64,000 nucleotides of DNA from NCBI GenBank assembly GCA_020543525.1, contig JAHYIO010000039.1, forward strand, positions 1,612,001-1,676,000, read 5' to 3'. The position numbers and the translations under genes were made by a program. Position 1 is the stretch's first letter, and each line of letters begins with the position of its first letter. The DNA comes from Coriolopsis trogii. Taxonomy: Eukaryota > Basidiomycota > Agaricomycetes > Polyporales > Polyporaceae. Under the pieces are notes generated by a model. It saw nothing but the letters and a program-made list of their open reading frames with translations. It had not been told where the DNA came from and ran no database searches. Below, one piece after another: positions 14,172 through 62,456 of the stretch.

Positions 14172-15937
14172 TCAGAATTTGGTTCCATATGGGGGGCTGG
14201 TATTATCACTGTTCTCAAAGGAGTCAGTTCGATACGCTTAGGGCGCAAGCTAGTCATGAGAACTCACACAGCACCCTCTAGCACTACGGGTTTGCCGGAT
14301 GTACGACCGGGCGGCGCAGGATGCCATTCCAGCCACATACTACGATAGCCATGTTTGACAAGAGCGACGTATTCCAGCGACATACACGCTGCCCGGAAGA
14401 CGTCAAATATCTCCATGCCACGTTCCTGGAGCGTCCTGCCCCATTTCCACAGACGAGTGTAGTCGGCGCTGGTATAGCACCGGTCTGCGAACTGTACGCC
14501 GCACGTGTCATGGAAATCAAGGTTCAGCCGGACGGTTCGCAATGTGGAGATGGCAGACAGTGTGTGGGCAACGTCCATCTGGAGAAACTGTAGTCAGACA
14601 TCGCTGGTAGCATGCTCATGCAGGCGAACGCGTTGGACCCACGTATGCTACAACATCCTCTTCTAGCTGCCGATAGCGATGCAGTTCCAAGTCTTCGAGC
14701 CGAGGGCACTCGCGAACGATATAGTGAAGGAGAGCATCGTCCATATCGTCGACCTGATAGACAAGCTCGAGGCTCTCAAGGTGATCAACCTGCAAGCCTG
14801 TGAGTATATGCAGGCACTCCGACGCTTTGAGGATTGGCGTGGCCCAAAGCCGGTGATTGTCTCTTGTCCCGTACCAGTTCTGATAATAGCGTGGTCGGTC
14901 GCACAGGGACAAGCGAACAAGCGAGGAAGCCTTGACGATGGCGAATATGGCATCGTGCGGATCCGGATAAGCAATCGACAGTGACCGCAACTGCGGGAGC
15001 TGGAGAACGTCCATCCCGCCATCGGGCGCAGGGCGTCCTAGGATAGGTGCTCGGGCGAGATGCGCCGGTTGGGCAATATGCACGGATAGTGAACGCAGCG
15101 AGGGCATAGCATGGAGGAGATTCGGGAGTGGCGATATGTGCCAGTCTTTTGGATATCGCCCGTGAAGCGAGAGGGTGCGCATGTTGGGCCATGTGAGCGT
15201 GGCCATCTGGGATAGTGGTATGGTTTCCACTGGCAGGTTGAGAACCTCGGCGCTCTCGTGCATACCAAGAATCAGAGGGGTAAGATATTGCGACTCAACA
15301 GCATACTCTTCCTCGATATCTCGACGACGTGCCTCGGCATCCATCTCCCTCCACAGGGTGGTCTCGTAGGTCAAAGAGCGGAGGCCATTGTTTATGAGAA
15401 ATGGGCCGTCTGTTGTGGGACTGTCGTATGACGGCCGCCAATTGGCGTCCTGCGCGATGCAGAGGTCTTTGACGTTGTGAAGGATGCATGTGTCAATTAC
15501 GCGCCAGGGAAGACCTAACTTGCTTCTCTTGAAGTATACCGAAGAGAGGAAGGGACAGGACTTGACACAGGCAACGAATGTGTCTTGTTCAGCATCGCTT
15601 TTGAGATACCCGACAATTTTGAGATGTCTGCAAACGTATAAGCGAATGTCGGATTTCCTGCCCCTTTCACGTACCGCACAATATATCTGATGCTTTCTGG
15701 AGGAGTCCTTTGCTTGTCCGTACGGCAAGTGGTGATGCAACGAGTGAAGAGGAGTTTCATGGACAGTGCTCGTAACCGATGACATGTCCGTGATAAGGCA
15801 TTCAGCGATCCTCTTTCACAAAGGACATACAGCAAAATGACATGGATTGCATCTTCAGGAAGCGAGTTCAATCTAGTCTCGTCATGAATCTTGAACGATA
15901 GTGAGGTACTTGGGGTCTTACGAGGGAGTGGCTCCAT
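14172..15937 (-). CDS. FB1: F-box/LRR-like protein, 531 aa, partner of AP1
   Basis: Predicted substrate-recognition subunit of an SCF ubiquitin ligase. Exons on the minus strand: 15675-15937, 14643-15627, 14268-14578 and 14172-14208, in frame throughout. An F-box-like segment lies at about residues 28-70 (SLPEDAIHVILLYVL, then LSRTCHRLRAL and an LF pair). Then come irregular leucine-rich repeats with motifs shared by every copy in the window: LxLPVETxPLSQM, W-x-x-MRTLSLHGRY, RAPILGR, LRSLSIAYPDP, LSLCDRPRYY, SLELVYQ and LELHRYR. The last exon is the least certain. FB1 is more diverged from FB4-FB9 and closest to FB2. Its start lies 854 bp from the divergent AP1 start. No lesion seen. Confidence 0.83.
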
Positions 15938-16791
15938 GCGTCTGAATTCGACAGGCGACAGGCGTAGCTGTGTAGGTAGCAGGTAGATTGCGTGTAGTGA
16001 AAGGTGAATGTGGCCTATCCCCATCCATGTCTTCTTGGCGAAAGTAGAGGTCTAGATAATGAGCAGCAGAGTGATGAACCAGTGCGTCCGACTTGGATTC
16101 CCACTGACGACGCGTGTCTTGTTTGGCTTGTGCTTGTTTTGGAAACTGCACAGCCACAGTTCAACTTCATTTTGAACCTGGAAGTGACTCTCCGCCATAT
16201 CAGAATGACGCCCTCACTTCTCGTAGCGTCGAAATATTGGACGTCCTAACATGGTTTGAGGTAGGAGCAGTGTCAGGGCCTAAACATGCTAGCACTACCG
16301 CTACTGATGTTCGCAACTGGCAGACATCAACTGGCATACGTGGAATGATAACAAACCTGGTCTTGGCAAGGCTTCCCGCAGGTCAGGGTACCGCACGCCT
16401 GTGGGCGGATGGTTATCTGATCTATGACGATCTGCCGTTACTGCGGTATTAGGGGGCTCCTCAACCGTCATATGCCGGCCTCATGCGTTGCTCCAATCGC
16501 AGCTGGGCGCATATCATTCAGTGTGCCTTATGCTTTCCTTCCCATGTTTTGATGTTTTATTGTTCTCAGAAGAGCACAATAGCAATCGAAACGCCTTCTT
16601 TGACCTAGAAGCAGGGAACGAGCAACGCAGATCAGACTCCGGAGTGCCTTGAGGCGTAATGGCATATCTCGGCGCGTATCGCTCTGCACCTCAACTATTG
16701 CCCCCGACCATGGATCTCTTGATAAATACGCCTCGACACCCCGCACTGGTGAACCCTGCTCTTTTCTCCGAGTCCTTACCCACACCCAGAC
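15938..16791. promoter_or_regulatory. Divergent spacer between FB1 and AP1
   Basis: 854 bp separate the two start codons. It is longer than the equivalent spacers at 50.6 and 59.1 kb and not obviously alignable to them by eye, so this pair is the most diverged of the FB-AP modules. No clear TATA box was identified. Short frames inside it lack family features. Confidence 0.5.
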
Positions 16792-17667
16792 ATGTCCACG
16801 GTCCACGAAGAGGAAGAGGCCATTCTCTTTCTCACTATCCCACGACAGCAACGCGGCAACGAATCCGATACGGAGATATGGACGTCCGCAGTCCTGGTAT
16901 GTGGGATATTGAAGGATTGACTTTGCGCACGTACAGCGCCGGGATTCTTTTCTCGACTGATCACATCTGCAGCGTGATGTCATCCGCCACAACAACGGTG
17001 TATTCAAAGGCGCTCCGCATGGATTCTACGTTGTGCAGGATGAACGCAATCCAACCGACAAAGATATATTCGGTTCCTTCGTGGGCGATGATGTCTTCTC
17101 GGCCTTACAGGAAGCTCAGAGGGAGCGCACTTCATCCGATGCCCCCAGCGTGATAGATGGTGATACCCGAACCATCCAGACCACCGAAACGCTCGATACA
17201 GTACGTCGCTCGACCTATATCTTCTCTAGTATAACGACTCACGCTTGTGCTGTCATTGTAGCCTTCGTGTACACGACCATCCAGGGCTGCGCAACACCGT
17301 GCGGAACGTTGGACGTCGAAGCCTACCCCGCCACGTAGTGTCGGACACGCGCAGATGACATACGTTCCACCTGCGGGGTTAGAAGACATACCTCTGAGGG
17401 ACATTCAGCGAGGTATCATACCAAGAGATCGTAACTCACTCATGCCTGTCAAAAATATTGGCGGCAATGACAGAGGCAGTATGTCTCTAATTCTGACCAG
17501 TGGTACTTTCACACTGACATCCTGTCATGAACCTTTTGGACAGTGTCGCTCTACTTTGTCTCTCTTGTACGTGATGCCTGTTCATATCTCCACCTGCGTG
17601 TCTCTGAGCTACAATCTGTGTGCGATCGTTGACAGTTGATGGATCACACGTGGAAGAGTCCCAAGTA

Positions 17668-17867
17668 CAGCTGTTGCCGAAATTCATGTCCGCACGGCGC
17701 GCGCGCACTTTTGACGCGCGAAAATCGAGAACACAAGAAAAATCGCTCGAGGCTCGAAATCCCCTCGCAGTCTCAATAAAACTACTTGAAACGTTGGTTT
17801 TAGTGCTCCTAATAATGTACGAGCTTTTCGCAATGTCGCAGATAGTCTGGTTGTCGAGATGTGTGAA
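17668..17867 (+). repeat. Left terminal inverted repeat of the AP1 insertion
   Basis: It matches the reverse complement of 18223-18422. The tract GGCGCGCGCGCAC and an AATCGAGAACACAAG segment are shared; similarity fades beyond about 200 bp. Confidence 0.85.
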
Positions 17868-18222
17868 CCATGTCACACGGAGAGAGTAGTTCACCTATCC
17901 CGTCAGTTCCCGCAGCAACGCAACCCATGATAGCTCAAAAACAATACCCTACGTTTGATATTGCATTGGTGTAATTGCATAGAAAGCTTCAGATTTTTCC
18001 TGGCCGCCCTCGACGAAATGCAAGGATGTCGTCTCTTAGGTACACTAGGCGCCCGGGAAGTGTTCCTCAGATTGTTCTTCCTGGACGAGTACTCCGAGAT
18101 TCTTATCTAGAATCATCGTCGTATGTAATAGTAAAGGGTACTACTCAACGTCATTCACGGTTCATGGGTATGTCACGCTGATGTACGGACAGAAACAGTG
18201 AGATCGCCACAATATGAGCTGG

Positions 18223-18422
18223 CTCATATATCGCAACGACCAGGCTATCTGCGACATTGCGAAAAGCTCGTACACTGTTAGGAACACTGAAACCAACGTT
18301 TCAAGTAGTTTTGTTGAGACTGCGAGGGGATTTCGAGCCTCGAGCGATTTTTCTTGTGTTCTCGATTTTCGCGCGTCAAAAGCGCGCGCGCGCCGTGCGG
18401 ACATGAATTTCGGCAACAGCTG
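18223..18422 (-). repeat. Right terminal inverted repeat of the AP1 insertion
   Basis: Inverted partner of 17668-17867. Single-base differences between the arms suggest the insertion is not very recent. Confidence 0.85.
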
Positions 18423-20369
18423 TATGCCGGCCTCAAGAACTTATGGTTCAAGCTTTTACTCGACACAGGTGAGGTTCTACGAATTCTTGCTCTGAGCCAA
18501 TGAAATATTGATCATTCTTTTCAAGGTGATGCTTCATTGTAAGTGATGCTATGCCGAATCATACCAGTGACACGACGCCTGAGCCGATTTAAAAGCTGGT
18601 TGTATGCGCAAGGCTTCAAGAAACTCGTGGTCAGCAATGAGGTCATACCACTCCTGAAGTGGCCTAGCAACGAGTTCGAATGGGAGAACAGACTACAGGT
18701 TCCCTGGCCTGTATCTTACCTTGACAGAAACCCAACCATGGGGTTTCGCCCAGAATTGGGCGAGCGTCCAATCCAGTACGGAGACAACTCAGCAGTCCGT
18801 ATGTTCTATGTTTTCCCCGTTCTCTTGTATATTACATTGGCTCATGTCGTGCAGATGTCCGCCGTTTTGGCGCCGAACACAATCTGGTTATGCATTTTCC
18901 CGCATGGGACTGGAGGAAGGCCAAACCGCTACGGGATAACCCACCGCGGCTCCAGGTCCCATGTGTTCTTGCCTATGCCGCTAATCATATCATTGCACGA
19001 CGGCCGTGGGACGGGATCATGGGGCTTGCTGTACCTTCGTGCGTACCTCCCGTGACTTGCGTTGCACGTATGACTGACTCATTGAACATCCGTAGTGCCA
19101 CAACTCTCCGTGGATCTTCTGCCTCAAACATGTCGGTGAGTACCGCCACAGCAACTGGACTTCCTGCTACGATGTTGATCGACGACATCTACTCAGAACG
19201 TGATTGACGCCATGGAACGGGCTGCTCACGTCTACACAGTATGTCTATATTATTATATTAACCTGCGGCATGCTGACGTTCCGAACAGCCTCGTGGTTTC
19301 CATATCCGTTTGATTCATCCGGACTACACGATTGCTTGTCGAAGTTCTAGAGCGTGAGAATTCATGCCTATGAGCCCATTCAACCCATACTGATCCACAT
19401 CGCCAGGAAAAACTTTGTGTGTTTTGGTCAATTTCCATGCAAGGTGCCTGCGGATTATGGACCCGAAATTCCTGTCATTCCTACCCACTACACGGCCAAT
19501 CCCTTTGCCTTCAAGGAGAAGTTTCTCCATTGGAGAGTATTCCTCCATTCGATGGAACTCCTAGTTCCTCGTCCTGGAGTCCAGCATCCAGACCACCGGT
19601 CTATGGATGACTTCGTAGTTGTGAGCTCGCTTAGGTTGGCCGAGGATGACTCCGACCCGGATCATGTCGCCGATGACATGGACTGTGTAGATGTTGCCTT
19701 GGACACGGGTTAGTGCGCAGATCTCCAGTGGACACGCATCTGTTGCTAACATACCCAATCATCTAGGGTCCACATCGAGCACGTTGCCTGTGCATGTCGT
19801 TGATGCAATTGCAAGGCATTGGATCCGTTGCAGAAGTGACAAGAGCCATGTCACAGATCCTGCGCAAGGCGAGAATACTACCCACGAAGATCTCAGAACC
19901 AATGGTGAGCTGTACTGCAGCTCGCGCCGCAACCTCAAGCATTGCGACATAATCTTCCGATTTCTCGACCAGGACAGCAACACGCTTGTCCCATTCAGAT
20001 GTCCCGCTGATCGCTTTCTACGATCACCCTGGACTTTGCAGCGCGGCGCGCATGTCGCTGACCCTCATGAATTCAGGGTCTGTCCTATCAGAGCTGTGGA
20101 CCGTAACTACATATTGGGTCTGGTGAGTGAGAGCGGAGTACTATATCACGGAACGTTGAGCGCTCAACAGCCGACAGAACTTTTTCTGGAGTGCGATGGT
20201 ATTCCATCATGCACCTGACCCAGGAGCCGGGGGACGGTTCAAGCCATATATCAGGCTTGCCCCTCCCAGGAAGCTCGATGAGAACGGACAAGTGCTGTCC
20301 TGCGAAGAGGGATTTAGATTCCATGACAAGTTGCCCACTCGGTTCTACTCATCTGAGACGGAATTCTGA

Positions 20370-21174: not shown

Positions 21175-22845
21175 TCAGGAACGAAGTTTCAGAAAAAATG
21201 ACGTCCTCTCTACTCGCATATTTCCTGTGTGCGCTTCAAAGTCTGCAGCATCCCCTTCGCGTACCACCGGACGCCACTCCTCCCACGTACTTTCGTACCC
21301 ATGATCGATGAGGCCAATGTATTCCAGCGATGGACACGCTGCACGGAAGACGTCAAAGATCTCCTTCCCGCGTGATCGCAGCGCTTCTCTCCAGTCCTGG
21401 ACACGCAGCATATCGCTCCGGCTGAAATTGAATCCTCGAAGAGTACGCCGCACGTGTCGTGAAAGTCGAGATTGAGGCGCACAACTCGTAGTGTAGAGAT
21501 GGCGGACAGTGTGCGGGCAATCTACGGACATGGCTCGTCAGCAGGCTGATATCGCGAACGGATGACTCACGAAAGCGACAGTGTCCGTGTCTCGTTCACG
21601 GTAGCGATGTAAATCGAGCTCGACGAGGTGGGAGTATTGAAGAATGTGTCGAAGCAGTGCGTCATCGGCCTCGTCCGCCTGGTAGACGAGTTCCAAGCTG
21701 CTGAGCATGGGAAGTTCTACGCATTTCAGGATGCGTAATGCTTCGGATGCCCGTAGAATGGGTGTCGCCCAACGATGTACACGTCGTGCTCCATGTAGAT
21801 CCTGGTAGTAACGGGGCCGATCACATAGCGACAGATGTGTCAAGGTGGTGAGGTCGAGGGCGAAGAAGAGATCGTCAGGGTCTGGATATGCTATAGTGAG
21901 TGAGCGAAGGTGGGGGAGTCTCGGAGCGTCGCTAGCTTCAGATCCTGGCGCAAGTCGTCCTAGTATTGGTGCTCGTGCAAGCTAGCGACTAGAACGGAGA
22001 GTAAGCGCAGAGATGGCATAGCACGGATGAGGTTCGGAAGCGGTGAGGGATTGCATGAATCAGGATAATGTCCATGGAGGGAGAGCGAACGCATGCAAGG
22101 CCACGACAGCCTTGTCATTTGGGACAAAGGTGCAGTCTCTACGGGGAGCGTCAGCACCTCGGCGCTCTCGTGCATGCCGAGAGTGAGTTGGGCAAGATAG
22201 CTTCCCTCGGCGGCGTGCACCTTGTTGATGTTATGATAGGACAGACTGATCACAATGTCGCGCCAGGGTATAACCCGATAGGTTAGTGCTCGAAGACCAT
22301 TGGGCATGTCGCATGGCACCAATCCAGATGGACCCTCGCGCGACCGACTCCAAGTCGCGGTCTCTGCGATGGATACGTCCTTCATGTTGTAGTCGATGCA
22401 AGCCTTGAGTACATGCCAAGGCACGCCCCCTTCGCATTTCTGGAACAAAACAGAAGAGAGTAAGGGAAAATACCTGACTTGCACGGAGAATTGTTCTCGG
22501 TCGTCCGGAGTCTGGAAGGGCGCGGTAACAGTGAGATGCCTGTTCAAATAAGTAGGTGAGGACACTGTTTTTTGATCAATTCGGATGCATACCGCACGAG
22601 GGGCGTATGTAATCAGGCGGACATGACAATTGGCCGTAACCACATGTGGTGCGGCTACGCAAGAAGAGACGTTTGATGCACAGGGCTCGTAATCGACGGC
22701 AAGTGCAAGAAAATGCATGGAGAGATCCCTGGTAACTCAGCAGCTCAAGGATAAAACAATAAATTACATCGTCTGGGACCTCTGTGAGCCTGGTTCGATT
22801 GGTCAATTGTATGATTGCAGGAAAGCGAGTGGTCGAAACACTCAC
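21175..22845 (-). pseudogene. FB2: F-box/LRR-like gene with at least two frameshifts
   Basis: Sister of FB1: F-box segment (RLTEVPDDVIYC... CTCRRLRALCIKRLF), then LPVETAPLSQM, RSLSLHGHY, LSLCDRPRYYQ, SLELVYQ and LHRYRE segments. Two breaks are visible. Near 21,975 the frame ending VLVAS must shift to continue as ARAPILGR. Near 21,435 the frame with LNLDFHDTCGV must shift to reach the FDVFRAACPSLEYIGL segment. The 5' end is uncertain: the apparent start at 22,845 is a GTGAGT that may be a splice donor, with the next exon opening at RLTEVPDD. It is head-to-head with FB3. Its former product would have been an SCF adaptor of about 530 aa. Confidence 0.8.
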
Positions 22846-23488: not shown

Positions 23489-25277
23489 ATGGACACGAAA
23501 CGACCACACCGACATTCCGACGCTTCTAACTGTTTGTCTGCAATATGTGGGAAGACATCAACAACGTCAGTCTCTTCATTCCCGTATGTCTTCGCCTATT
23601 GATGTTGTCTCTCAGACTCGAGACTCTGAATGCGGATGTTTTCCGATTGATTGCGCTGGAGTTATCCAAAGACCGCAGGTTGAAGGCACTTGCTACATGC
23701 TCGCGTACGCTTCGACGCCTAGCTTTCCCCGTCCTGTTTTACCGCTGTCACCTGGGTGCCGAACGTTTTCCCCCACCTGCCATTCGTCCCTTTGCCCGGT
23801 AAGTGATTTGCAACGTCTCATGTTATGATGGCATGCGGTGACTCTGCCCAGATATTTCAGGCTTCCTGGAGACATCCTCAGTGAGGAATACTCTCGCTGT
23901 CTACCTGAAATACTCGACAGCTTCCCATTTCTTACTGCCGTTATCTTTGAGGACGGTGGCTGCGTGCCATGGGAGCTCCTCAAGCCATGCCTCGCTCGGC
24001 CGCGTATCCTTTCTCTAACCTTTGAAGGGCTGACTAGCCTGCCTGATACCGAGCCATATCCGGAGGAAGAGCTGTCGTCCATCCCCACAAACCTTACCAA
24101 CTTCGAGTTCATCACCCCAGTGTGGCGAGACATCTCGGTCGGGCCAGCGATCTTGCGTAACCGATATGATTACAAGAAAGTGCTTTCCCGCGAAGCAACC
24201 AATCTCGCAGCACTTGTTAAGAGGATTAACGGCTCCGTGGAGCGTCTAGCAATCCCGGTGGAGTCGGTACCGTTGCACACCATGGCGGACATGTCTTGGC
24301 CGCATCTCCGAGAGCTCGCGTTCTGTGGGGTGTACAGGACCACGTCAGAGGTTGAACAGCTCCCCGTCTTCCTTTCATCGCTGCCTAATATGCGAAAACT
24401 ATCGATTCAAGTGCAGCCCTCGGTGGAGCCCGAGCTTCGAGCCCCCATTCTTGGCGATCACCCCGCTCCGTCAAAGGTCCTTTGCGGGCTACGATCCCTC
24501 ACCGTCTCATATCCGAATCCCGATGACGCAATCTTCTCAGTCGACACTACATGCCTGACACATCTCTCTCTTCGAGACTTTCCGCGATATTACCACAAGT
24601 TGTTTGGCAGGCGCTTCGGCCGTAGCTGGGGTTCTCCCCTTTTGTCTCCAGAGGAATGCTTGTCCATCTTACAGCGCATGGCTTTACCACAGCTCACAAG
24701 TCTCGAAATCGTCTACAAAGCTGAAACGGCCGGCTCCGACGACGCTCTCCTCACATACGTTGCCTCCAAACTTCCGAAGCTCACCCACCTCGAGATCCAT
24801 CGCTATCGTGTGGACCGGAAGGAAGTAGTGGCGCACGTGCGTATATGCCCAGTTTCGCGGTATTCTCTTGTCTACTAACGTACTGTGTCGTATCTGTGCT
24901 CTAGATTTCAATCGCCAAGATTCTGGCTGAGGCAAAGTCGCTTGAGAGGGTGTATCTCTATCTCGATATGCACGACGACCCCGGTCTGTACCGCAGCAAT
25001 GACGACGAGCTGTTCAAAGTGTGGTTCCCCACGTTTAAGAAGCGGGGCACGCAGATCCTCAAGATCATGCAGGTCTGCCCCCAGCTGGAGTTTGTCGCCT
25101 TGCTCTACTTTGGCCAAAGGTCGCCCTTTTGGGCCGAGTTCCACCCAAAACGGTGTGCAATGCCCCGGTTCCTCGTCGACCTGCGCCAGAAACCGTGAGT
25201 CTTTGTTGTGTTTGCATTGAGGCTGAGCTCACCGTCTTTCTCGTAGTGATTCGCAGTTGTTGCCCTTCAGGTGGTGA
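23489..25277 (+). CDS. FB3: F-box/LRR-like protein, 527 aa
   Basis: Probable SCF ubiquitin-ligase adaptor. Exons: 23489-23583, 23616-23798, 23852-24836, 24905-25194 and 25247-25277, intact. The F-box starts at residue 33 (LETLNADVFRLIALEL, then TCSRTLRRLAFPVLFYRC). The LRR-like region contains LAIPVESVPLHTM, RAPILGDH, LRSLTVSYPNPDD, SLRDFPRYYHK, SLEIVYK and EIHRYR. A short final exon ends in LPFRW followed by TGA. Exon 3 has the same length as FB1 exon 2 (985 nt), showing a common gene structure. Closest relative in the window is FB10, including the 3' flank. The distinctive DDPGLYR and FKKRGTQI segments mark this subgroup. Confidence 0.87.
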
Positions 25278-25359
25278 GGCCTGTCGGTGCGCTTTTGCCT
25301 CCACACCTTATGACCGTTTGTCACACTGTTCTCACCTCTAGCCCGTCTACCGTGACAGA

Positions 25360-25530: not shown

Positions 25531-25577
25531 TCTTCCCACATTCAATACCTGGGTGTTGACACAATCATCATGCGTAC

Positions 25578-25653
25578 GGCAGCAGCACCTAGGAGCTGAG
25601 AGATATTATTAGGATCAACCTTGGAGCACAAAGACGAGGTCCTCATCGGACAT
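25578..25653 (-). pseudogene. Relic of aspartic-protease exon 1 (AP type)
   Basis: On the minus strand this starts ATG and encodes MSDEDLVFVLQG, matching exon 1 of AP2 and AP3 (MSDDDLVFVLQ). An 8-bp deletion then breaks the frame before VDPNNISQLLGAAA. The exon is 76 nt instead of 84 and still ends at a GTACGC donor. No later protease exon follows: the next sequence is the FB3 3' flank. It is divergent from FB4, so it is the remains of a fourth FB-AP pair. Confidence 0.85.
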
Positions 25654-26242
25654 AGTGGACTAATAGTGGTGAACTGGTCGGCTTGGTAGAGGCGTGCGGA
25701 AAGGGGAAAAGGACAGGTAGCGAAACACAAGATTCGAGTCTGCCTTAAGAGAGAATAATAGCAGCTAGCGCGCACGGACCTCGAGTCGGAGAACAGGAAC
25801 ATATTGATGAGGCTTATGATGCTGGAGGCCGCACGGGAGTGTGCGTCCTCACTGGGTGCTTCGATATGGGGCACCAAAACACACATCGCCTCTCGTGTGC
25901 GGTGACGGACAATACTCGGCGCGCGTGGGGACCTCGAGGATGAAAAGAATCGCGGTTCAAACCATGGGCGCGAGGTGGACGCGAGCACCAGAACTTGAAG
26001 GAGAGCAGTGGTTTGCAAGAACGTGTTCTTCATGCCCATCGGAGTAATCGGGCAGCGGGCCTTAGATCCGGCAGCGACTCCGAGACTCACGTGTGCCAGC
26101 TCAGCGCTCAGCGCTCAGGCCGCCGACTTTAACACTGCCCCATACGCTTTCGTTCTCTTCGAGGACGGACACCGGACATTCGAAGGCCAATGATTCTCAC
26201 AACCCGGATCCTAGAAAAGCTCTTCACTTTCTCAGTGCCATC
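25654..26242. promoter_or_regulatory. Divergent promoter of the relic AP / FB4 pair
   Basis: 589 bp between the two start codons. It aligns by eye with the spacers at 50,647-51,179 and 59,096-59,611 (CCATGGGCGCGAGGTGG-like block, CTCTTCGAGGAC near the F-box side). This shows the protease exon and FB4 were duplicated as a unit with their shared promoter. Confidence 0.65.
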
Positions 26243-31260: not shown

Positions 31261-31329
31261 GAGACTCGGTGGCAGGGGTGGAATACTTCAGCGAGAGACA
31301 GTTGCAAGCGAGAAAATGCGATACTTATG

Positions 31330-47905: not shown

Positions 47906-48300
47906 TGACGATAATTGTGTGCGGTGTCCTCGAACAGAGCGAGCGAGTACATGAGGCGGGAGCGTGGGCGGGCCAGAAGACAGACGAGAGAGGGCCTTGT
48001 ATGAGAGTCGGAGAGTGACAATTTCAAGCTGGCACGGCCGCCAGACCGGTAGGACCCACGGCCCGCTGCCTCCGATGCACTCCCACGCGCGAACAACACG
48101 TTCTCCCCAACCACCTTCTGGTGCTTGCGCCCACCTCTCGCCCATGCTTCGCACCGCGAATCTTTCCTCCTCGAGGCCACAGGTACACCGAGTATTTCCC
48201 AACAGAGTCTCATGTGTCTAGGCATCCGACGTACTGAGAAGATCGCAGACCTGTGCGGCCCCATGGGTACCTGTCAGGCTTGTTTTTTCGTCTCGAGGGG
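47906..48300. repeat. Orphan divergent promoter next to FB6
   Basis: Aligns with 50,647-51,000, including the block gatgcactcccacgcgcgaa at about 48,075 and again at about 50,829. On the far side, where AP2 starts in the other copy, the sequence runs instead into the duplicated DUF4470-end segment, so the protease gene was lost. Confidence 0.75.
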
Positions 48301-50646: not shown

Positions 50647-51179
50647 TGACAGTAACCTTTGGAGGTGTCCGCGAACAAAGTGAGTGAGTACATGAGGCGT
50701 GGCCGTAACGTGGGCAGACCCAGGAGAGAGAGACTTGGTCCCTTGGACGAGACAAGCCGGACCGAGGCCCGGACAAAAGATATATATTTACTTTTTGTCT
50801 GGGGTAAGCCTTCGGCCCGACGACCCCGATGCACTCCCACGCGCGAACAACACGTTCTCCCAAACCATCTTCTGGTGCTCGCGCCCACCTCGCGCCCATG
50901 CTTCGCACCGCGATTCTTTCCACCCTCGAGGCCATCGTGTGCACCGAGTATTGTCCGTGAATGGCCAAAAGAGTCGTAAGTGTCTTGGTACACCATATCG
51001 AGAAGATTGCACATCGGTCCCTGTTTTTTGCCTTGAGTTCCGTGCGCAGCCTCCGTACGCAGTTGCCAGTCTATAAAGACATCTCATATTCTGTGTCTCA
51101 TTTGCTGCCGACTCATACTGCATATCTCTCCCCTCTCCTGCGATTCTATAGGCCGAGTCATCTCACGTTCTTTACCACC
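50647..51179. promoter_or_regulatory. Divergent promoter between FB7 and AP2
   Basis: 533 bp, similar in sequence and length to the spacers at 59,096-59,611 and 25,654-26,242. Shared blocks include a GCGCGAACAACACGTTCTCC stretch and CGCGCCCATGCTTCG. On the AP2 side a CTATAAAG at about 51,072 lies near the expected transcription start. Co-duplication with both genes argues for shared regulation. Confidence 0.65.
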
Positions 51180-53962
51180 ATGTCCGACGACGACCTCGTG
51201 TTTGTACTCCAAGGTCCTAGGGTCGATCCGACTAAGATCTCTCAGCTTCTAGGTGCAGCTATGGTACGCGTTGATCTCCATTAACGTCAGTATTGTATTT
51301 GACTTGACATCACTCAGGCCAGCTTGGCCCGTCATGCCAGGTTGGACAGGCAGTGGCGCTCCTCCAACGAGTCCACGCCTTCTCCGATCATTCGTGATGC
51401 GCTTCCTGGTCCCTCCAACAAGAGGCCTATTGCCGAGGATCTCACAGGGGAGGTCGGCTCCCTTTCTGTAGCGCCGCCCTCCAAGATGAGTAAAGCCCCG
51501 CCATCTCCGACTGCACCTCAGATACCCCTACCTACTCGACGTACGAGCATGGGGGTGACGACAAGATCCCCTACGATAGTGTTGGGGAGGGGCTCGGTAC
51601 GTGGTTTTTTACCGCGTTCCTCGTCCTCTGCAAACTCACCTGTACACCATATGCTCATGCGTGCAGCGTACAGGCCAATTGGCGGCATCCTCACGCTTTG
51701 CCTCCTTGGCTTCCAGAGTATCGGTTGCTCCATATCAGCAGGGGATCCTCCCGGCAGAAGAGAACTCTGTGATGCCTCTCCAAGCCCCGAGAGCAAGCTA
51801 TCCGGAGGGAAGCTACATCGAGGAGATTATGGCTCTCCGTACGTATACCGCTTATTACGATCTCGCTTGTATGCTGAGCATCCTGAAGTCTGGTACAGTT
51901 TAGACTTGGTGTGTGACTGTTTACACAACTCAGCTATTCCCGACTGACGTTGGTGTCGAATTCAAGAAATTATGCCGCGATGCAACAAGTAGTGACGATC
52001 TGCGACCCTGGATCGGAATCGTTTACTCGCTTGCAGCTGATACCGGTACGAATTCTAAGAAGTCATCGTGTAGTTATGCGCCACTGACCTTCGTAACGTC
52101 AGCCGCTGCTCACTTGTAAGCTACCAATATGGTCTTCGTCATCGTGATGCTGTACTCATTGTGCCTCCAATAGCTGGTTCTTTGGAAGAGGCTTCCAACA
52201 GATCGAGTACAACGCTGTCACTAAAGAGTACAATACGTTACCTTGGGATCCTCCCTACGGTAACGGACAACGAAAAACGATTCCGATGGGCCTCGCAGAC
52301 AAGAGAGCAGAACGCGATCCTCGCTTGATCAAGTACCTTGACGGCGGCGCAGTTAGTAAGTCACGTTACCGAGACAGAGTAAAGCACCTCATCCTGACAT
52401 GATATGATTGACTCGTCAGGCGTCCATCGATGGACAGACGAGATGCCGTTCTTTGTCCCTTCGTGGGACTGGAGGCAGAACAACAAGGATCATCGTTCGC
52501 ACATACTCAAGTTTCCACGTGTCCTTGCTGAGAAAGCAACACGTGTAGTTGCATCGCAGGACGTGGACGGTGAGCTTGGCCTTGCCGTACCAGGGTGCCT
52601 ATTATTTCGCAACCTTGCCATGTAGCCGCAATGCTGACTCCCGAGTATCCTGTAGGTGGAGATATCCGTGGACGGATGCCAAGCCTTCTGATCGTCTGGT
52701 ATACTTCGACTCACCTATCGTGCACGTAGTACCTACTCATCGACTGTATCTGCTGCTATTTACGCAGACGTTCTTCGACGTGCTCAAGCAAAGCAGGGGT
52801 CAAACAAGTGTAGAGACGGTCCGTATCATCGATTGTCCGCGCTGCTGCAGACATTGTACTGACAGCAGGAGAGTAGCCGACCGCCCTCATCATCCGGTTC
52901 CTGATCCCAGACGATGACAGGGAAGCATACGCCCCTGCGCCAGTGTAAGGATTCACATCCAACGTGGAACTCGTGACCATGCTGAACCGCACGCTCAGGC
53001 AAAGTTTCTTGTACTATGGTGTCGGCATGTCATGTGGTATACGCCAAAATGACGGTCGATATCTCCTTCCAGAGTTCAGTCCACCCCTTCGGATCCTCCC
53101 CAAGCTCCCGCAAAATCCACCCATGCACGGGCACCCGACTCCGCCCCCTGTGTTTGAGTTTTGGACTCTCCGGCTTTTGTCCATGACGCTGTTGGTGCCA
53201 AAAAGGGCTGACCCAAACTACGATGTCCTGGATAACACGGACTGGGAACACAAGACCATCAATATCGGAACGTCTAGGAATTCCACAGGCGGGCTTCCGG
53301 TCATCCTGGACTCAGGTAAGCAATCACGCTGACTGCGCACTCGTTCCAGACCGTACAGACTGATCATACTCCGTAGGCTCCACATTTTCGTGTCTACCGG
53401 ACTTTGTCCTGGGCGAAATGTGGGCGTCCTGGTTCAATCGCGATTTTGAAGAGTATATGTTCTCCGAGGAGATCGGCCTACTCTCGCACGACCAGGACTT
53501 CTCTGCGCATGACATCCTGTTTGAGTTCGAGGACAATGGCGGTCAGAAGTTCACTTTACGCTGCAGCGCAAAGGACTTCCTGACTAGCCCGTGGATGAAC
53601 CCCGACGACCACTGCAAGTACTCACTTTTCCAGAAACCTGAGGATGAGACCGACAAGACTAGTTTATACATACTTGGTGTGGTACGTCGCACATCATACT
53701 CCTCACATCGTTCTCTGCAGTCATCGCTAACGTCCCCTCCTTCTCGCAGAACTTTTTCTGGGTCGCGATGCTCAAGCTGGAATCGGCTCATCGCGGCAAT
53801 CGTCCGACTGAGACGTGGAATCCCACTGTGCAGCTCGCACCTCAGAGGGTCGTGAAGGATGGCAGGAAGGTCGGGGAAGCGTACGATCTCCATTTCTTGA
53901 AAGATCTGCCCCCGAGGATCGCAGCGATGGCATTGGACCAGCCGGAGCTGTGTCCGACCTGA
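51180..53962 (+). CDS. AP2: divergent pepsin-like aspartic protease, 677 aa, 14 exons
   Basis: Exons: 51180-51263, 51318-51596, 51667-51838, 51889-51908 (20 nt), 51934-52045, 52103-52115 (13 nt), 52174-52355, 52420-52594, 52656-52698, 52768-52818, 52877-52944, 52999-53315, 53377-53681 and 53750-53962; one continuous frame. About 120 N-terminal residues are acidic then Pro/Ser-rich and probably disordered. Pepsin landmarks follow: DTA at 221-223 then HFWF; flap-like KYLDGGAV near 280-287; DGELGLAVP near 336-344; DSGSTFSCLP from 504; FEFEDNGGQKFTL; YILG at 603-606 followed by NFFW. Both catalytic Asp are kept, but the Gly of the first DTG is Ala, so activity is uncertain. There is no signal peptide; extracellular pepsins have one. 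Divergent from FB7. Confidence 0.85.
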
Positions 53963-54668: not shown

Positions 54669-55132
54669 TCAAGGCGGCGTGAAGAGGGTGGCGGCGGACT
54701 GTCCACGGTGCCATCGGATGGGTATAGAGACGGAGTCCCTGAAAGGACACAGTGAGCTACTGGTGTAATGAGTCGAGACACTGGCGAGAAATCCGACGTA
54801 CTGATGAGACGCGTGTTTCACGAGCACAAACCGGGGCTCCGCGCAGCGCGGCGGGTGGAATTCGAGCCAGACGGCCGTCGGGATGTGGTGGTAGAGTAGA
54901 CCGACGTACTCCAGTCGGGGACAGACTTGCATGATGTTGACAATCTGCGGCCCGTACTCTCCCCTGAGGATGCGGAACAGGCGCATCGCCGGGCCTCGTC
55001 AGCGCAGTACGCGCCGTGGTCTTCCTCGAAGTCGAGGTTCAGATGAATAGTGCGGAGCGCGCGCAACTCGGACAATCGCGTCGCAATGTGGAGCTAAGAA
55101 GGATTGCGTAAGGTGTGAGCATATGTTAAGTA
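54669..55132. repeat. Near-identical tract shared with 57,136-57,597
   Basis: The last two exons and flanking introns of FB8 and FB9 are almost identical. In the part from about 54,745 I see two differences, one of them the frameshift. Identity falls sharply just before exon 3 (after GTGAGCATATGTTAAGT), where FB8 and FB9 differ at many sites. The pattern indicates gene conversion or a very recent partial duplication. Confidence 0.8.
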
Positions 55133-56523
55133 AAGCGGAGCGAGGAAGACGCACGTAGTCGACAGCTTGATCCCGGTGACTACGGTATCGATGCAGTTCC
55201 AAGTGGGTAAGACCAGTATATGTTGCCACGATATATTTGAGTAGCTCGTCGTCATCATAAGCCGCGTCGACGACGTAAACAAGCTCAAGACTGGTCAGTT
55301 GTGGCATGTCCATACGCAACAGTATCAAGAAGCACTCAGCCGGGGATAGGAGGGGACAAGGCCGGGACCAAACATATCTGTTCTTTGATCCCAACCGTTC
55401 GTAGTATCGTGGGCAGTCGCGGATGGATAGATGTGCGAGTTCTGCAGTGTCCACCGAAAAAATGGAGTCCTCGGGATCGGGATAGGCCACTGTAAGCGAG
55501 CGGAGACCGCGCAGCACCTCACGCGGGGATAGATGATGCCGTCCTAGAATAGGTGCTCGTTCTATCTTTGGGTTTGCGTAAGGGGAGATTTGTATGGAAA
55601 GTGTGGACAGCTCCGGAAGGGAAGATAAGAAAGTCGGAAGGAGTCCTATTCGAGCCGCTTCATGATATCGCCCGCAAACGGACAGTTCCTGCAGCTTTGG
55701 CCAAGTGAGCGCTGCCATCAAGGTAAGAGGTGCGGCCTCCATTGGCAAGGAAAGCTGCCTGAGAGATCCGTTCATTGATGGGAGGAGCTGTGATAGACAT
55801 ACGCACTCCTGAGAGTATATCCCAGGAAGGTCACGCTTTCGCCTGTTCGGGAGACGTCTTGGCCCAACGAATAGCTCCCGCCAGAAAGGTGATTCGTATG
55901 TGAAAGAAGTGAGTGTGATTGGAGGTGCTGGACAATCCTTTGGGGAATACTGCTCCGTTTCAACAAGTTCAACGTTGGGTCCCAGTGTGAGGGACTTGAT
56001 GTTGGGAATAGCAAAGCATACCCTGAGCATGTCCCACGTGATGGGACCGCTCTCAACGAAAGAGATAGTCGCAAGGGATGGGAGGCGTTCGAGTACTCTT
56101 TGTAGCACTCCAGCCGCCCGAGACTCCGAGCGATTCATGGGGTATCGGAGATGGCTTATGACTGTTTAGACTGTGAAAATGCAAATAGGCGGCAATTCAC
56201 ATACCGCACGAAAGGACATATGCGCAGCGGCATGTCGAGATGTGGCCGGGCTCGACAACGGGAAAAGAGGAAAGGTGCAACAAGAGCACGGAGGGCGCGC
56301 GAGGTAGAGGCAAGCCATTTCATTGACATTCCAGGTCTTCGGATTTCAAGTTCAAGGGCTATCAGGCGAAATACGTCTACGTTGAGAGTCTCCAGTCTTG
56401 GAACGCAGCGTGATAAGTGAACGAGGAGGAAATCGGAATAACGACTTACGTGGGAGGTATACATCGGCACGATGCACTAGACACCAATGCGTCTGTGAGT
56501 GTGAGTGTGCTATCAATCATCAT
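54669..56523 (-). pseudogene. FB8: F-box/LRR-like gene with a one-base deletion in exon 4
   Basis: Exons on the minus strand: 56450-56523, 56205-56396, 55155-56154, 54802-55093 and 54669-54738. Exon 4 is 292 nt, whereas the same exon is 293 nt in FB4, FB5, FB7 and FB9. Comparison with FB9 places the missing base at about 54,977 (GGAACAGG versus GGAACCAGG on the plus strand), shifting frame after RRCA. The rest is intact: F-box LETLNVDVFRLIALELEIRR, LPMEAAPLTLM, RAPILGRHH, LRSLTVAYPDPEDSIF, RDCPRYYE. A truncated protein of about 440 residues with F-box and most LRRs could still form. The lesion is a single C in a run of two, so sequencing error is possible. Confidence 0.82.
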
Positions 56524-57135: not shown

Positions 57136-57597
57136 TCAAGGCGGCGTGAAGAGGGTGGCGGCAGAACGTCCACGGTGCCATCGAATGGGTATAGAGACGG
57201 AATCCCTGAGAGGACACAGTGAGCTACTGGTGTAATGAGTCGAGACACTGGCGAGAAATCCGACGTACTGATGAGACGCGTGTTTCACGAGCACAAACCG
57301 GGGCTCCGCGCAGCGCGGCGGGTGAAATTCGAGCCAGACGGCCGTCGGGATGTGGTGGTAGAGTAGACCGACGTACTCCAGTCGGGGACAGACTTGCATG
57401 ATGTTGACAATCTGCGGCCCGTACTCTCCCCTGAGGATGCGGAACCAGGCGCATCGCCGGGCCTCGTCAGCGCAGTACGCGCCGTGGTCTTCCTCGAAGT
57501 CGAGGTTCAGATGAATAGTGCGGAGCGCGCGCAACTCGGACAATCGCGTCGCAATGTGGAGCTAAGAAGGATTGCGTAAGGTGTGAGCATATGTTAA
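57136..57597. repeat. Near-identical tract shared with 54,669-55,132
   Basis: Partner of the FB8 tract. FB9 carries the full 293-nt exon 4 and so preserves the frame that is broken in FB8. Confidence 0.8.
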
Positions 57598-59095
57598 GTG
57601 GAGCAAAGAGGACGCACGTAGTCGACAGCTTGATCCCGGTGGCTGCGATATCGATGCAGTTCCAGGTGGGTGAGACCCCCGTATGTTGTCACAATGTATT
57701 TGAGCAGCTCGTCGTCATCGTCAGCCGCGTCAATGAGGTAGACAAGCTCAAGACTAGTGAGTTTTGGCATGTCCATTCGAGATAGAACCGCAAGGCACTC
57801 TGCCGGGGATAAGAGAGGGCAAGGCCAGCCCCACTGGGCGCCATATCCTCTTGATCCGAGACGTTCATAATAACGGGGGCAGTCGCGGATCGATAAATGT
57901 GTGAGGTTCGCGGTGTCAACCAGAAAAATCGAGTCCTCGGGATCGGGGTAGGCCACTGTTAGGGATTGTAGACCGCGCAACACCTCGCGCGGGGAAGAAT
58001 GACGGCGCCCCAGTATAGGTGCGCGTTCTGCCTCGGCGGATGAGAATGGGAAAACTTGGATGGAAAGGGTGGACAATTGCGGAAGCGCAGACAGGAGAGT
58101 CGGAAGGAGCCACACTTGAGCTGGGTTGTCAATGTCATAACGACCGCAAATAGTCAGTGCCTGCAGCTTTGGCCAAGTGAGCGCTGCCATCGCAGTGAGA
58201 GGCGCGGCCTCCATCGGCAAGGAGAGCTGCCTGAGAGACCCACTCATGGAAGGAAGGAGCTGTGATAGACAGATTCGCTCCCGAGAGTATATCTCAGGGA
58301 GGTCTCTGCTCCGTCTATTGGGAAGACGCCTTGGTCCGACAAATTCACGGACGTATAGCTCCCGCCAGAAAGGTGCTTCGTATGTGAAAGAAGTGACCGT
58401 GATCGGAGTAGCTGTACGATCCGCTGAGGAATACGACTCCATTTCGACAAGCTCAACATTGGGCCCCAGTGTCAGGGACGTAATGCTAGGAATAGCAAAG
58501 CATACCCTGAGCATGTCCCATGTAATGGAACCGCTGTCAACGAAAGTGATAGTGGCAAGGGATGGAAGGCGTTCAAGTATCCTCTTCAGCACTTCAGCCG
58601 CATGAGGATCTGAGCATTGGATGGGGTATTGGAGATGCCTTATGAATGTTCAGACGGGAAACATGCGAAGAGACAGCACGTCACGTACCGAACGAAAGGA
58701 CATATGTACAGCGGCATGTCGAGATGTGGCCAGGCCCGACAACGGGAGAAGAGGATAGGAGCGGTAAGAACGCGTAAGGCGCGTGATGACGAGGCAAGCC
58801 GCTTGAGTGACACTCCAGGTCTTCGGATCTCGAGTTCAAGTGCTATCAGACGGAATACGTCGGCGTTGAGAGTCTCTAGTCTTGGGACGTGGTATGATGA
58901 GTGAAAGAGGAGAATGATTAGAACAACGACTTACGTGGGGGGAATACATGGGCACCTCAAGCTCAGTCGTGAAACACTAGCCATGGGCACATCCGTGGGT
59001 GTGCTATCAACCACAGTCTGCTGCACTCTTGACTCTGTAGGGAGCACCCATGTTGGCACGACGACAGAGAAGAGCTGTGCGATTGTCCTGTTCAT
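57136..59095 (-). CDS. FB9: F-box/LRR-like protein, 578 aa, partner of AP3
   Basis: Probable SCF adaptor, intact. Exons on the minus strand: 58935-59095, 58689-58880, 57618-58638, 57269-57561 and 57136-57205. Exon 1 has the same length as in FB7 (161 nt), and the N-terminus (MNRTIAQLFSVVVPTWVLP) aligns with it, supporting the chosen ATG. F-box from residue 54 (LETLNADVFRLIALELEIRR). LRR-like segments match FB8 and FB7: LPMEAAPLTAM, LQALTICGRYD, RAPILGRRH, LQSLTVAYPDPEDSIF, SIRDCPRYYERLG, SLELVYLIDAADDDDELLKY and HLNLDFEEDHG. Intron 4 is 63 nt without a stop, so its retention would add 21 residues in frame. The start is 516 bp from divergent AP3. Confidence 0.88.
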
Positions 59096-59611
59096 GCTTT
59101 GATGTAGCGATGCTTGCACCGTGTCCGCAAACAACGCGAGGGTGTGTGTGAAGCAGGGACGTAGCTGGCGACCTGGTCCTCAGAGCCGCCACCACAGACA
59201 AGTTCAAGGTGCGTTGGCGCCAAGCAAGTCTCACATAGCCGCCGGACCGGGAGAGGGCCACGGCCCGATTACTCCGATGCAAGACACTCACGCCGTTCTC
59301 ACAGTCCAACTTCTCGTTCTCGCGCCCATGGTTCGACGTGCTGTTCTTTCCGCCCTCGAGGCTACCATGTGCACCGATTATTCTCCTTGATCTCACACGG
59401 GGGGTCACGCATATCTTGGCATCCCTTACCGAGGCTCTCGCGGCAAGTTGTACGCACCACGACCGCCGCGGGACGCCTCAACAATCCATTTTCCTCCTTC
59501 TGAGACTTGTCTATAAGGAGGACCCCTCTCTTCCTCTGTGGTTCAATCCGCGGTCCCCCTCTCCACGCTTCACCACTCGAGCTGATTCGGACCTACAAGT
59601 TGACCACCGCC
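59096..59611. promoter_or_regulatory. Divergent promoter between FB9 and AP3
   Basis: 516 bp. Alignable with the FB7/AP2 spacer on the protease side (TTCTCG...CGCGCCCATG, CCGCCCTCGAGGC) and the F-box side. A CTATAAGGAGG at about 59,510 lies roughly 100 bases before the AP3 ATG and is a candidate TATA element, matching the position of the element before AP2. Confidence 0.65.
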
Positions 59612-62456
59612 ATGTCCGACGACGACCTCGTTTTTGTGCTTCAGCCTCCTAGGATCGACTCAAAGAACATTTCTCAGCTTCGAAATGCAGCCGCGGTACG
59701 CATCAAAGTCTCCATCCCTCATCGTTGTTATATGACTGAACCGCCATCCAGGCCAGCGCAGCCCGTCAGATAGGGTTGAACCGGCGGTGGTGCTTTCTCA
59801 TGTCTGAAGATGAGCCTCCCACCGCTCTCAATCCGCTTCCCACTCCCGCCAACAAGAGCGCCGTTCCCGATGCTCACGCCGAGGAGGTGCTCAACGCTTC
59901 CGCGAAAGCGCCAACCTTGCCGACAACTCAAGGTTCAGCTACCCCGGTGACACCCGACGCGGAGGTGCCCATAGCCACTCGGCCTGCGAGCCCGGGAACG
60001 ACAACTCGGTCTCCTGCAATCATGACGGGGAGGAATTTGGTACGTGCATATCCCATCATGTTGCTCACCGCACTGCAGTACATGACCTTGAGTAATACAT
60101 GACCTTGAGTAAACTGATCGTTTACACAGCAATCGGGTGGTCGCTCACGCTATACTTCGATGGCGTCCAGAGCCCCCGTTGCCAGAGTTAGTGATGCTCA
60201 GCCGCATCTGCGAAGACTCCAGAAAGGTATCTCCGCGGCCGAGATTAACTCCGGCATGCCTCTGCAAGCCCCGAGAGAAGATCATCCTAAGGGTCGGTCC
60301 ATTTATGATATTCTGGCTCACTGTACGTATTCCGTCAACCGCAGCACCATTTTACTACCACTGAAAAGTTGAAAGTATGGTACAGTTTGGATTTGGTGTG
60401 TTCATTTTACTAAGTTGTCGAGTCCCGCCTGACGCATATGTTTTGCTCAATCTTGAAGGAACTATGGGGTGATGAAACGACCCGCAAAGATTTGGAGCCC
60501 TGGATGGGACATATCATCAGGCTTGCAGCCGACACCGGTGAGGCCTCTACCGAAGTTCTCGTGACGCACCCCTACTAAACTGCGATGTCTTAGCCGACAG
60601 TGCTTTGTGAGTTAATAGTAGTATCAATCATGGTGAGGCTGTACTGACTATGCGCAATAGTTGGTTCTACGGGGAGGATTTCCGAGAACTCGAGTTCATC
60701 AATGCTAACCGCACAGAGTACATTACATTCAGTTGGGAAAAGCCTTACAGTCACGGCATACGTATGGCACTGCCTATGGGTCCGGCAGATGAGAGGGCAG
60801 AGCCTGAGCCTCGGCTTATTGGGTATGGGGACGAGGGTGGAGTTAGTGAGTCTTGCTTCGCATGAAACTTCCGGGAATCACTTACTGATGGGGGGTCACC
60901 GTCACATTAGGCGTCTTTCGATGGACCGACGAGATGCCCTTCTTTGTCCCTTCATGGAGCTGGAAGCTGAACAACAAAAGCCGACGTTCGCACATGCTCA
61001 AATTCCCCCGCGTGCTCGCTGAGGCAGCAACGAGGGTAACAGCTTCGCAGACCGTTGATGGAAACCTTGGTCTTGCCGTACCTGGGTGCCCACTATCTTC
61101 CGACCTTATTGTGCGGCTGAAATGCTGATTTTTGACTGTCTTCAGGCGGAGAGCTCCATGGAAGGGTGCAGAGCCCTCGGATCGTCTGGTCAGTTCAGAT
61201 CTGGTTATATTTTGCGCTGACCATTCTGACCGGCTTCGCTGTTGTCGCACAGACTTTCTTTGACATATTGAACCAAGTCCCTGCTGAACGCACCGTAGAG
61301 GCGGTTCGTAGCTCTGATCAGAGTTGCAGTGGATTGTGCTGACGACTATAAGCAGCCGGCCGCTCTCCTCATCCGATTCCTAAAGCCGGACAATACGAAG
61401 GAAACGTATGCTCCCGTAACAACGTGAGCACACCTAGAAATTGCGGACATTTGCTCTTACTGACGTGTCGCAAACACAGGCAAAGTTTCTTGTACTATGG
61501 TAGTGGCCTACCGTGTGCCATACCTCAGAGCAACGGCCCGTACCTCCTTCCACAGTTTGGCCCACCCCTCCAGATTCTTCCCAAACCCCCGCAGTACCCA
61601 CCGAGAGAGGATGGACCGACTCCGCCCCCTGTGTTTGGCTTCTGGGCTCTCCACTTTCTATCCATGACCCTATTGGAGCCTGTAGGTCACGATCCCAACC
61701 ACGACGTTCTAGATGAGGCAAACTGGGTACAGAAGACCATTCGCATCGCAAGAATTAGGGGCGGCACAGGCGGGCTACCTGTCGTCTTCGATTCAGGTAA
61801 GAGCATGCCCGTCCTGCTTTCCTACGAATATTGGACTGGACTGATTGTATCTACTATTGCAGGCAGTACTGCCAGTTGCCTTCCAGAGTCTGTCCTCTTC
61901 GAGATGTGGACAGCTTGGTTCGGCGGCGACGACGATGAATACCTCAACGATGTCCAGGGCGATGTGCTCTGGCACTCGCGCGACTTCTCGAAACACGACA
62001 TCTTGTTCGAGTTCAAGGACAACGCGGGTCAGATATTTACTCTGCGCTGCAGCGCAGAAGACTTCCTCTCGAGCCCCTGGCACACCGAAAGCGAGCCAGC
62101 ACGCACCTACTCGCTGTTCCAAGCGCCTGAGGACGAGACCGACACGACTCTTTGGGTGCTCGGTGTGGTACGTACCGCGCCATGCTCCCCTCGTCGTTCT
62201 CCACAGTCAAGGCTGACGTCTCCGTTTCCCCTTGCAGAACTTCTTCTGGGTCGCGATGCTCAAGCTCAAAGCAGAGCATCGTGGCCATCGTCCGTCGTCC
62301 ACCTCGAACCCCACCATGCAGCTCGCGCCCCAGAGGGTCGTGCAGGATGGGAGGAAGGTCGGAGAAGCGTACGATCTTGAATTCCTGAAGGACATGCCCC
62401 CAAGGCTCGCATCGAGGGTATTGGGGCAGCCGGAACTGTGTCCGCCTCCGGTCTGA
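59612..62456 (+). CDS. AP3: divergent pepsin-like aspartic protease, 680 aa, 14 exons
   Basis: Exons: 59612-59695, 59752-60039, 60130-60322, 60376-60395 (20 nt), 60459-60537, 60594-60606 (13 nt), 60661-60845, 60911-61085, 61146-61188, 61253-61303, 61353-61423, 61480-61796, 61863-62167 and 62238-62456. All phases equal those of AP2. Landmarks: DTA at 220-222 followed by DSAFWFY; flap GYGDEGGV near 280-287; DGNLGLAVPG near 336-345; DSGSTASCLP from 505; KDNAGQIFTL; VLG at 605-607 then NFFW. As in AP2 both Asp are kept and the first motif has Ala for Gly. The N-terminal 125 residues are Pro/Ala-rich and variable, while the C-terminal 65 residues (NPTMQLAPQRV, KVGEAYDLEFLKD) are nearly identical to AP2. 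No signal peptide. Confidence 0.85.

Follow-up and report, generated by a model that had tools for sequence, protein, structure and literature searches.

The window (the whole stretch of 64,000 nt analysed here) harbours three head-to-head pairs of an F-box/LRR gene (FB) and a gene for an A1-like aspartic protease (AP), interspersed with further F-box genes, an exon-1 relic of AP and detached spacer copies (Table 1). AP1, AP2, AP3 and the relic are divergent from FB1, FB7, FB9 and FB4, respectively, as the earlier note on this DNA had described. Its spacer lengths of 854, 533 and 516 bp were reproduced, while the fourth, given there as 589 bp, measures 536 bp from the FB4 start at 26190, which is homologous to that of FB7 (MILTTRILEKLF / MIPTNRTLTKLF). 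The FB1 start was counted by hand in the printed reading frame, and the AP1 model comprises exon 1 and exons from 18420 on. An inverted repeat (17666–17875 / 18215–18424) sits within AP1.

Table 1. Coordinates of the F-box/LRR (FB) and aspartic protease (AP) genes, their spacers and relics in the window.
Feature	Position	Strand	Remarks
FB1, F-box/LRR gene, partner of AP1	14312..15937	-	core 14312–15874 spliced, without stop or frameshift; ATG 15937
FB1/AP1 intergenic spacer	15938..16791	.	854 bp; without similarity to other spacers
AP1, divergent A1-like aspartic protease	16792..20369	+	ATG 16792; motifs DTG / DTG
FB2, F-box/LRR gene without AP partner	21268..22791	-	two frameshifts
FB3, open F-box/LRR core without AP partner	23617..25177	+	clade of the AP6/AP7 partners
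AP exon-1 relic, divergent from FB4	25572..25658	-	ATG 25653; MSDEDLVFVLQG, then frameshift
FB4/relic spacer segment aligning with the FB7/AP2 spacer	25861..26052	.	74% over 193 nt
FB4 core, F-box/LRR gene	26407..28022	+	two in-frame stops; probable ATG 26190
FB5, open F-box/LRR core without AP partner	28728..30307	+	
Orphan FB7/AP2-type spacer copy, inverted	31362..31595	.	66% over 262
FB6, truncated F-box gene	47132..47682	-	
Orphan FB7/AP2-type spacer copy	47859..48196	.	74% over 360
FB7, F-box/LRR gene, partner of AP2	48829..50646	-	open core 48829–50431; ATG 50646
FB7/AP2 spacer	50647..51179	.	533 bp
AP2, 666 aa, 14 exons	51180..53962	+	ATG 51180; motifs DTA / DSG
FB8, F-box/LRR gene without AP partner	54807..56398	-	one frameshift
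FB9, F-box/LRR gene, partner of AP3	57274..59095	-	open core 57274–58882; ATG 59095
FB9/AP3 spacer	59096..59611	.	516 bp
AP3, 679 aa, 14 exons	59612..62456	+	ATG 59612; motifs DTA / DSG
FB10, F-box/LRR gene without AP partner	63378..64000	-	runs past the window end

The last three of these spacers had been said to align. The similarity is real but patchy: the FB7/AP2 spacer matches a segment of the FB4/relic spacer, and matches the FB9/AP3 spacer at 81% over only 72 nt, the remaining matches of that pair falling in exon 1. The AP1 spacer yields a self-match only in this comparison. Both orphan spacer copies were found, and the relics and breakage are equally real, affecting FB2, FB4, FB6 and FB8; FB4 has decayed along with its AP. 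A second exon-1 relic lies at the locus FBl. Its peptide score of 30 is at background level; as DNA, it shares 38 of 57 positions with AP3 exon 1, a level reached at three of 234,916 plus-strand positions (the FBl relic, AP2 and AP3). A third AP-like exon-1 frame (C36:1505692–1505775, minus strand) is found beside the fragment FBg, in an order that is not divergent.

AP is predicted to be a cryptic aspartic protease of the pepsin family (A1) without an evident signal peptide, in keeping with the first assignment. In Foldseek, a partly confident model of an AP relative has only A1 enzymes among its 40 best matches, and both catalytic aspartates are present in all 11 rows compared. The glycine following them is less conserved, being kept at site 1 in 4/11 rows (Ala in the other seven) and at site 2 in 7/11 (Cys or Ala in four); D[ST]G occurs at both sites in the Fomes, Daedaleopsis, Cerioporus and AP1 rows. 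Some AP proteins may therefore be inactive, given this replacement beside the catalytic residue. The curated cut-off of PF00026 (19.9 bits) is not reached by any of five members; two match the family at all (member 1 at 13.6 bits, E 0.046), and P0001, P0002, P0043 and P0044 give no PF00026 match in Pfam. This shortfall marks a limit of profile sensitivity; a score above the cut-off does not define the fold. AP thus resembles family A1 in its predicted fold, two Asp motifs and ILG-type C-terminal motif, and differs from it in the lack of an evident signal peptide, the sub-threshold Pfam score, the frequent loss of the motif glycine and the linkage to F-box genes. A single-sequence AlphaFold model of P0001, the Fomes relative, was discarded (mean pLDDT 30). 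An origin from an LTR-retrotransposon protease is not favoured, as the genes have 14 exons and two Asp motifs per chain.

F-box proteins are the substrate adaptors of SCF ubiquitin ligases. The FB genes and their close relatives show weak F-box-type matches in Pfam (best E 0.026, below cut-off), and several members match LRR families at best E values of 0.0001–0.03, all under the curated cut-offs; a distant Grifola relative, P0042, carries PF00646 above cut-off (E 5e-7, residues 18–55). The family profile found no PDB match at E 10 or better, so the identification as an F-box/LRR-like protein, which we uphold as probable, rests on these weak matches together with P0042.

The pairing proved general in the genome. 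All seven AP genes found (AP1–AP7, all on contig C36) stand head-to-head with an F-box/LRR gene, the tight linkage of two genes expected of a toxin–antidote system, and both exon-1 relics keep the divergent arrangement. AP searches of the genome returned nothing beyond C36, and no AP shows up in the 4-kb 5′ flank of the F-box loci on C5, C34 and C8, the flanks that this check covered (best tblastn E 0.014); remoter F-box-like loci lie on C20, C25, C33 and C36:1838k. Within the examined C36 cluster, a start site placed at random on either strand, clear of F-box bodies, has a divergent F-box core within 1.7 kb, a limit chosen after the pairs were seen, with p = 0.073, giving a chance of p^7 = 1e-8 for all pairs, or p^4 = 3e-5 if independence is granted to just four AP lineages. 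A module copied whole keeps its genes adjacent even without selection, so that the seven pairs do not count as independent cases.

Adjacency of this kind could reflect neutral linkage, whereby ancestral chance neighbours sharing a promoter were copied within a repeat-rich F-box array and their proteins act independently; we consider this unlikely. Three duplicated blocks cover both genes and little else, so that adjacency was inherited, and the array abounds in duplications, relics and traces of gene conversion, all of which suits such an origin. Partners have similar dS values, and the FB and AP trees pruned to the seven pairs agree, bearing out co-duplication and co-phylogeny. In the AP tree, AP2/3 and AP4/5 join with support 87/91 (unstarred), and AP1 and the Ganoderma row join on long branches. 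The dS of AP4/5 drops from 0.53–0.63 (codons 1–247) to 0–0.06 (from codon 409), and that of FBc/h follows the opposite trend, from 0.11 to 0.47; these opposing gradients indicate gene conversion. The near-equal mean dS of the two averages over mosaics and owes part of its agreement to luck.

However, the pairing is kept in four lineages of AP, the very divergent AP1 among them, and losses are one-sided. Among the 24 F-box loci of the examined C36 cluster, seven have an AP, two a relic and 15 neither, and no orphan AP, which would be a toxin without its antidote, occurs among the loci found in the genome. On the FB tree, from which the fragment rows FBg and FB6 were removed, the paired label is as scattered as in shuffles (500/500 as low or lower), so that the place of an FB in the phylogeny is no guide to whether it has an AP. 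At least eight changes separate FB genes with and without an AP, against zero AP without FB, an outcome of probability 0.5^8 = 0.004 were both genes equally likely to occur unaccompanied. Other fungi also speak against neutral linkage, AP and FB relatives being located on contigs of identical size in Cerioporus and Fomes. In Cerioporus squamosus, the contig with C8T65DRAFT_665879 and C8T65DRAFT_665885 measures 104,316 bases. Of four AP relatives, two thus partly bear out, at the level of contigs, the expectation that F-box genes adjoin AP elsewhere; the remaining two come from species with no F-box relative among the matches listed. FB relatives are found in at least 11 named species, in only two of which AP is among the matches listed; the protein search scored about 8000 candidates per query, so that failing to find AP in further species carries no evidential weight.

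The pair could also serve in non-self recognition of the kind seen in fungal incompatibility or in warding off invaders, with LRR-varied FB paralogues sensing proteins of foreign or allelic origin and the protease linked to them acting as an effector released or activated upon recognition. Consistent with this, 24 related FB loci are clustered, an AP accompanies only a subset of them, and the protease shows no evident secretion signal; expanded F-box families of nematodes and plants have been suggested as innate immune elements (PMC12680543). We nevertheless find this role improbable, as both genes are under constraint and no sensor or signalling domain exceeds the Pfam cut-off. The dN/dS ratio is 0.17 in three F-box pairs and 0.24–0.38 in three AP pairs, and dN is lower than dS in all 80-codon windows tested except one; an AP6c/AP7c estimate, being out of frame, was excluded. 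With every one of the six ratios well below 1, the fast selection proposed in the earlier note is not supported, and there is no sign of an arms race.

It is very unlikely that AP is a pseudo-protease, working with FB in one ligase as a scaffold or substrate-trapping subunit instead of being its target: the glycine replaced by Ala or Cys in 7/11 rows would fit, but both aspartates persist throughout and four rows keep D[ST]G twice.

We tentatively prefer, at somewhat less than even confidence, that the linked FB restrains AP through SCF degradation, in a toxin–antidote-like or self-restrained effector pair. AP and FB would form a two-gene module passed on and copied as a unit; FB would act as an SCF adaptor whose LRR surface recognizes the linked AP and directs its degradation. 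AP, apparently cytosolic judging from the lack of a visible signal peptide, would be harmful, or need tight control, wherever FB is absent. One-sided orphaning and the published F-box antidotes favour a poison–antidote or incompatibility reading of the pair. Against our preferred reading stand the possible inactivity of some AP proteins, the constraint on both genes, the scatter of paired FB genes over their tree, the joint decay of FB4 and its AP, the weak Pfam evidence for the F-box and the few FB-bearing species in which AP is among the matches listed. We further speculate, as a rather unlikely possibility, that mushroom-forming fungi carry selfish or incompatibility pairs in which a pepsin-like poison lacking a secretion signal lies back-to-back with its F-box antidote, the pairs duplicating, and being disarmed by protease loss, time and again.

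Worms and rice are documented to have F-box antidotes, and a protease-partnered fungal counterpart, if true, would extend them to a third kingdom and provide mushroom genetics with concrete candidate killer or incompatibility loci. FB7 with AP2 and FB9 with AP3 are directly testable pairs. Regardless of that function, a pepsin-family branch for which we found no description in the literature searched is lastingly linked to a ubiquitin-ligase adaptor. Listings of the open-access PMC literature, including work on spore killers, divergent gene pairs and fungal F-box expansions, yielded no described F-box and aspartic protease pair of this form.

The KSS antidotes of Caenorhabditis tropicalis, which counter the KLMT-1, PZL-1 and HYDE-1 toxins, are F-box proteins degrading the linked product through SCF (PMC12680543). 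Likenesses include the linkage of two genes, one encoding an F-box solenoid protein, a clustered and expanded antidote family and an F-box that sequence comparison barely reveals; recurrence is proposed there to be driven by duplication of the toxin/F-box module. However, the toxins countered by KSS originated from a tRNA synthetase subunit rather than a protease, the system is animal and its function is shown by genetics and biochemistry, whereas that of the fungal pair is a prediction. KSS proteins also evolve rapidly, unlike the three constrained fungal F-box pairs. At rice qHMS1, the F-box protein HPA is likewise the antidote to a linked toxin, HPT, by a mechanism of detoxification that the authors hypothesize; the toxin is a DEAD-like RNA helicase, and this is a single locus in a plant (PMC10657391). 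The S-RNase/SLF self-incompatibility locus similarly links a cytotoxic enzyme to F-box genes whose products deliver it to the proteasome through SCF (PMC12403065). There, the enzyme is a ribonuclease with a mating function, whereas in the fungus every protease is matched by a divergent F-box gene next to it.

The two gene families were searched for across the 38.8 Mb genome of Coriolopsis trogii using single proteins as queries: AP, the divergent cryptic aspartic proteases of the pepsin family (A1), and the F-box/LRR family, designated FB. Gene models were reconstructed manually as well as by spliced alignment, and the window (C36:1612001-1676000) was compared with neighbouring DNA of the same contig, namely C36:1452001-1612000, 1676001-1687000 and 1722001-1737000. 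The whole-genome search identified seven AP genes, every one of them located on contig C36, and all seven possess a divergently oriented F-box partner, no AP gene found in the genome lacking such a neighbour. The distance between AP exon 1 and the F-box core is 713-749 nt for AP2 to AP5, 918 nt for AP1, 1083 nt for AP6 and 1482 nt for AP7. Ordinary A1 proteases served as a control: 49 matches to PF00026, reduced to 29 loci by our own grouping, included none near the F-box loci obtained in the genome searches (0 of 29). The window and the compared C36 stretches contain 24 F-box loci, seven of which are paired with an AP gene, two with a relic of AP exon 1 and 15 with neither.

Coordinates of the protease genes, their F-box partners and other features (C36, contig coordinates; window, coordinates within the window)
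Feature	Location	Strand	Partner or remark
AP1, AP2, AP3	C36, within window		FB1, FB7 and FB9, respectively
AP4	C36:1493173-1490268	minus	FBc
FBc	core from C36:1493919	plus	AP4
AP5	C36:1514343-1517225	plus	FBh
FBh	core from C36:1513630	minus	AP5
AP6	C36:1680850-1677763	minus	FB11
FB11	core from C36:1681933	plus	AP6
AP7	C36:1728361-1733430	plus	FB12
FB12	core from C36:1726879	minus	AP7
AP exon-1 relic	within window		adjoins FB4
AP exon-1 relic	C36:1527820-1527903		623 nt from FBl core
AP-like exon-1 frame	C36:1505692-1505775	minus	adjoins F-box fragment FBg
Repeat element	C36:1730353-1732330		interrupts AP7
Inverted repeat	window 17666-17875 / 18215-18424		in AP1
Exons, ribonucleotide reductase large subunit and CLN3 family protein	window 9581-11063 and 11948-12541		left of F-box cluster
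894-aa open frame	window 37809-40490	minus
Inverted copies, 197 nt	window 31061-31257 and 44882-45078

The AP-like frame beside FBg does not stand in divergent order with this fragment. A repeat element roughly 1.9 kb long breaks AP7; copies of the element (83-89%) are present on contigs C6, C1, C30 and C5, and it carries a smaller dispersed repeat nested inside. FB12, the partner of AP7, has an open core. Between the first exon and the DTG exon of AP1 lies an inverted repeat with arms of 210 nt, 93% complementary, possibly a small transposon.

Three duplicated blocks each contain both an AP and an F-box gene and end just past the 3′ ends of the two. The dS values of AP pairs are close to those of their partner F-box pairs, a comparison affected by gene conversion in AP4/AP5 and FBc/FBh. 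AP4 and AP5 are mosaics, with a dS of 0.53-0.63 in codons 1-247 and of 0-0.06 from codon 409 onward, and this difference along the gene suggests gene conversion between modules. The F-box tree (36 rows) and the AP tree (11 rows), both pruned to the seven pairs, agree in placing pair 1 by itself, pairs 6 and 7 together, and pairs 2 and 3 joined with pairs 4 and 5; the shared topology is one of 945 possible unrooted seven-leaf topologies. In the AP tree the latter join is supported at 87/91, and the AP1 branch is long. The starred branches of the F-box tree force at least eight changes between F-box genes with and without AP, AP alone being found in no case, and the with-AP label is scattered over this tree as much as in shuffles. 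Neutral co-inheritance of the two genes may alternatively underlie their association.

Both families are under constraint, weaker in AP, as indicated by dN/dS values of 0.17 in each of three F-box pairs and of 0.29, 0.38 and 0.24 in the three AP pairs (each value averaged over 60 bootstraps), with upper limits below 0.5 in all F-box and AP pairs tested. The AP product may alternatively be a pseudo-protease partnered with the F-box protein.

The FB family matches the LRR families of F-box proteins weakly. Its distant relative from Grifola, P0042, contains a clear F-box (E 5e-7) and matches the FB family profile with an E-value of 5.7e-44, covering 45% of the first query sequence. Among the matches listed, relatives of the F-box family came from at least 11 named species, and AP was also present in two of these, Cerioporus and Fomes; none of the F-box relatives listed came from Ganoderma sinense or Daedaleopsis, the other two sources of AP relatives. 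The Cerioporus AP (C8T65DRAFT_665879) and three Cerioporus F-box relatives (P0007, P0020 and P0024) are each listed on a contig whose length is exactly 104,316 bases, and for the Fomes AP and the Fomes F-box relative P0022 this length is in both cases exactly 2,509,152 bases. Identical base counts were taken to denote one contig, which would indicate co-location at the level of the contig.

The genes matching ribonucleotide reductase large subunit and CLN3 to the left of the F-box cluster are ordinary ones. The 894-aa open frame matches no Pfam family at E 0.01 and lies where the G+C content of the window peaks (0.63 at 38-40 kb). The two 197-nt inverted copies are 89% complementary, and the stretches holding them contain open frames that match one another.

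We hypothesize that the F-box protein could act as an adaptor of an SCF ubiquitin ligase, restraining the protease encoded by the linked AP gene. The observed pattern would be expected of a restrained-toxin pair: a putative SCF adaptor and a protease without an evident secretion signal are in lasting divergent linkage, and many adaptor genes have no protease beside them, whereas every protease gene found has its adaptor. The two products may instead constitute an effector pair of immune type. For a restrained toxin with an F-box antidote there are counterparts in other organisms: such antidotes are established in C. tropicalis (PMC12680543), and rice also has one (PMC10657391).
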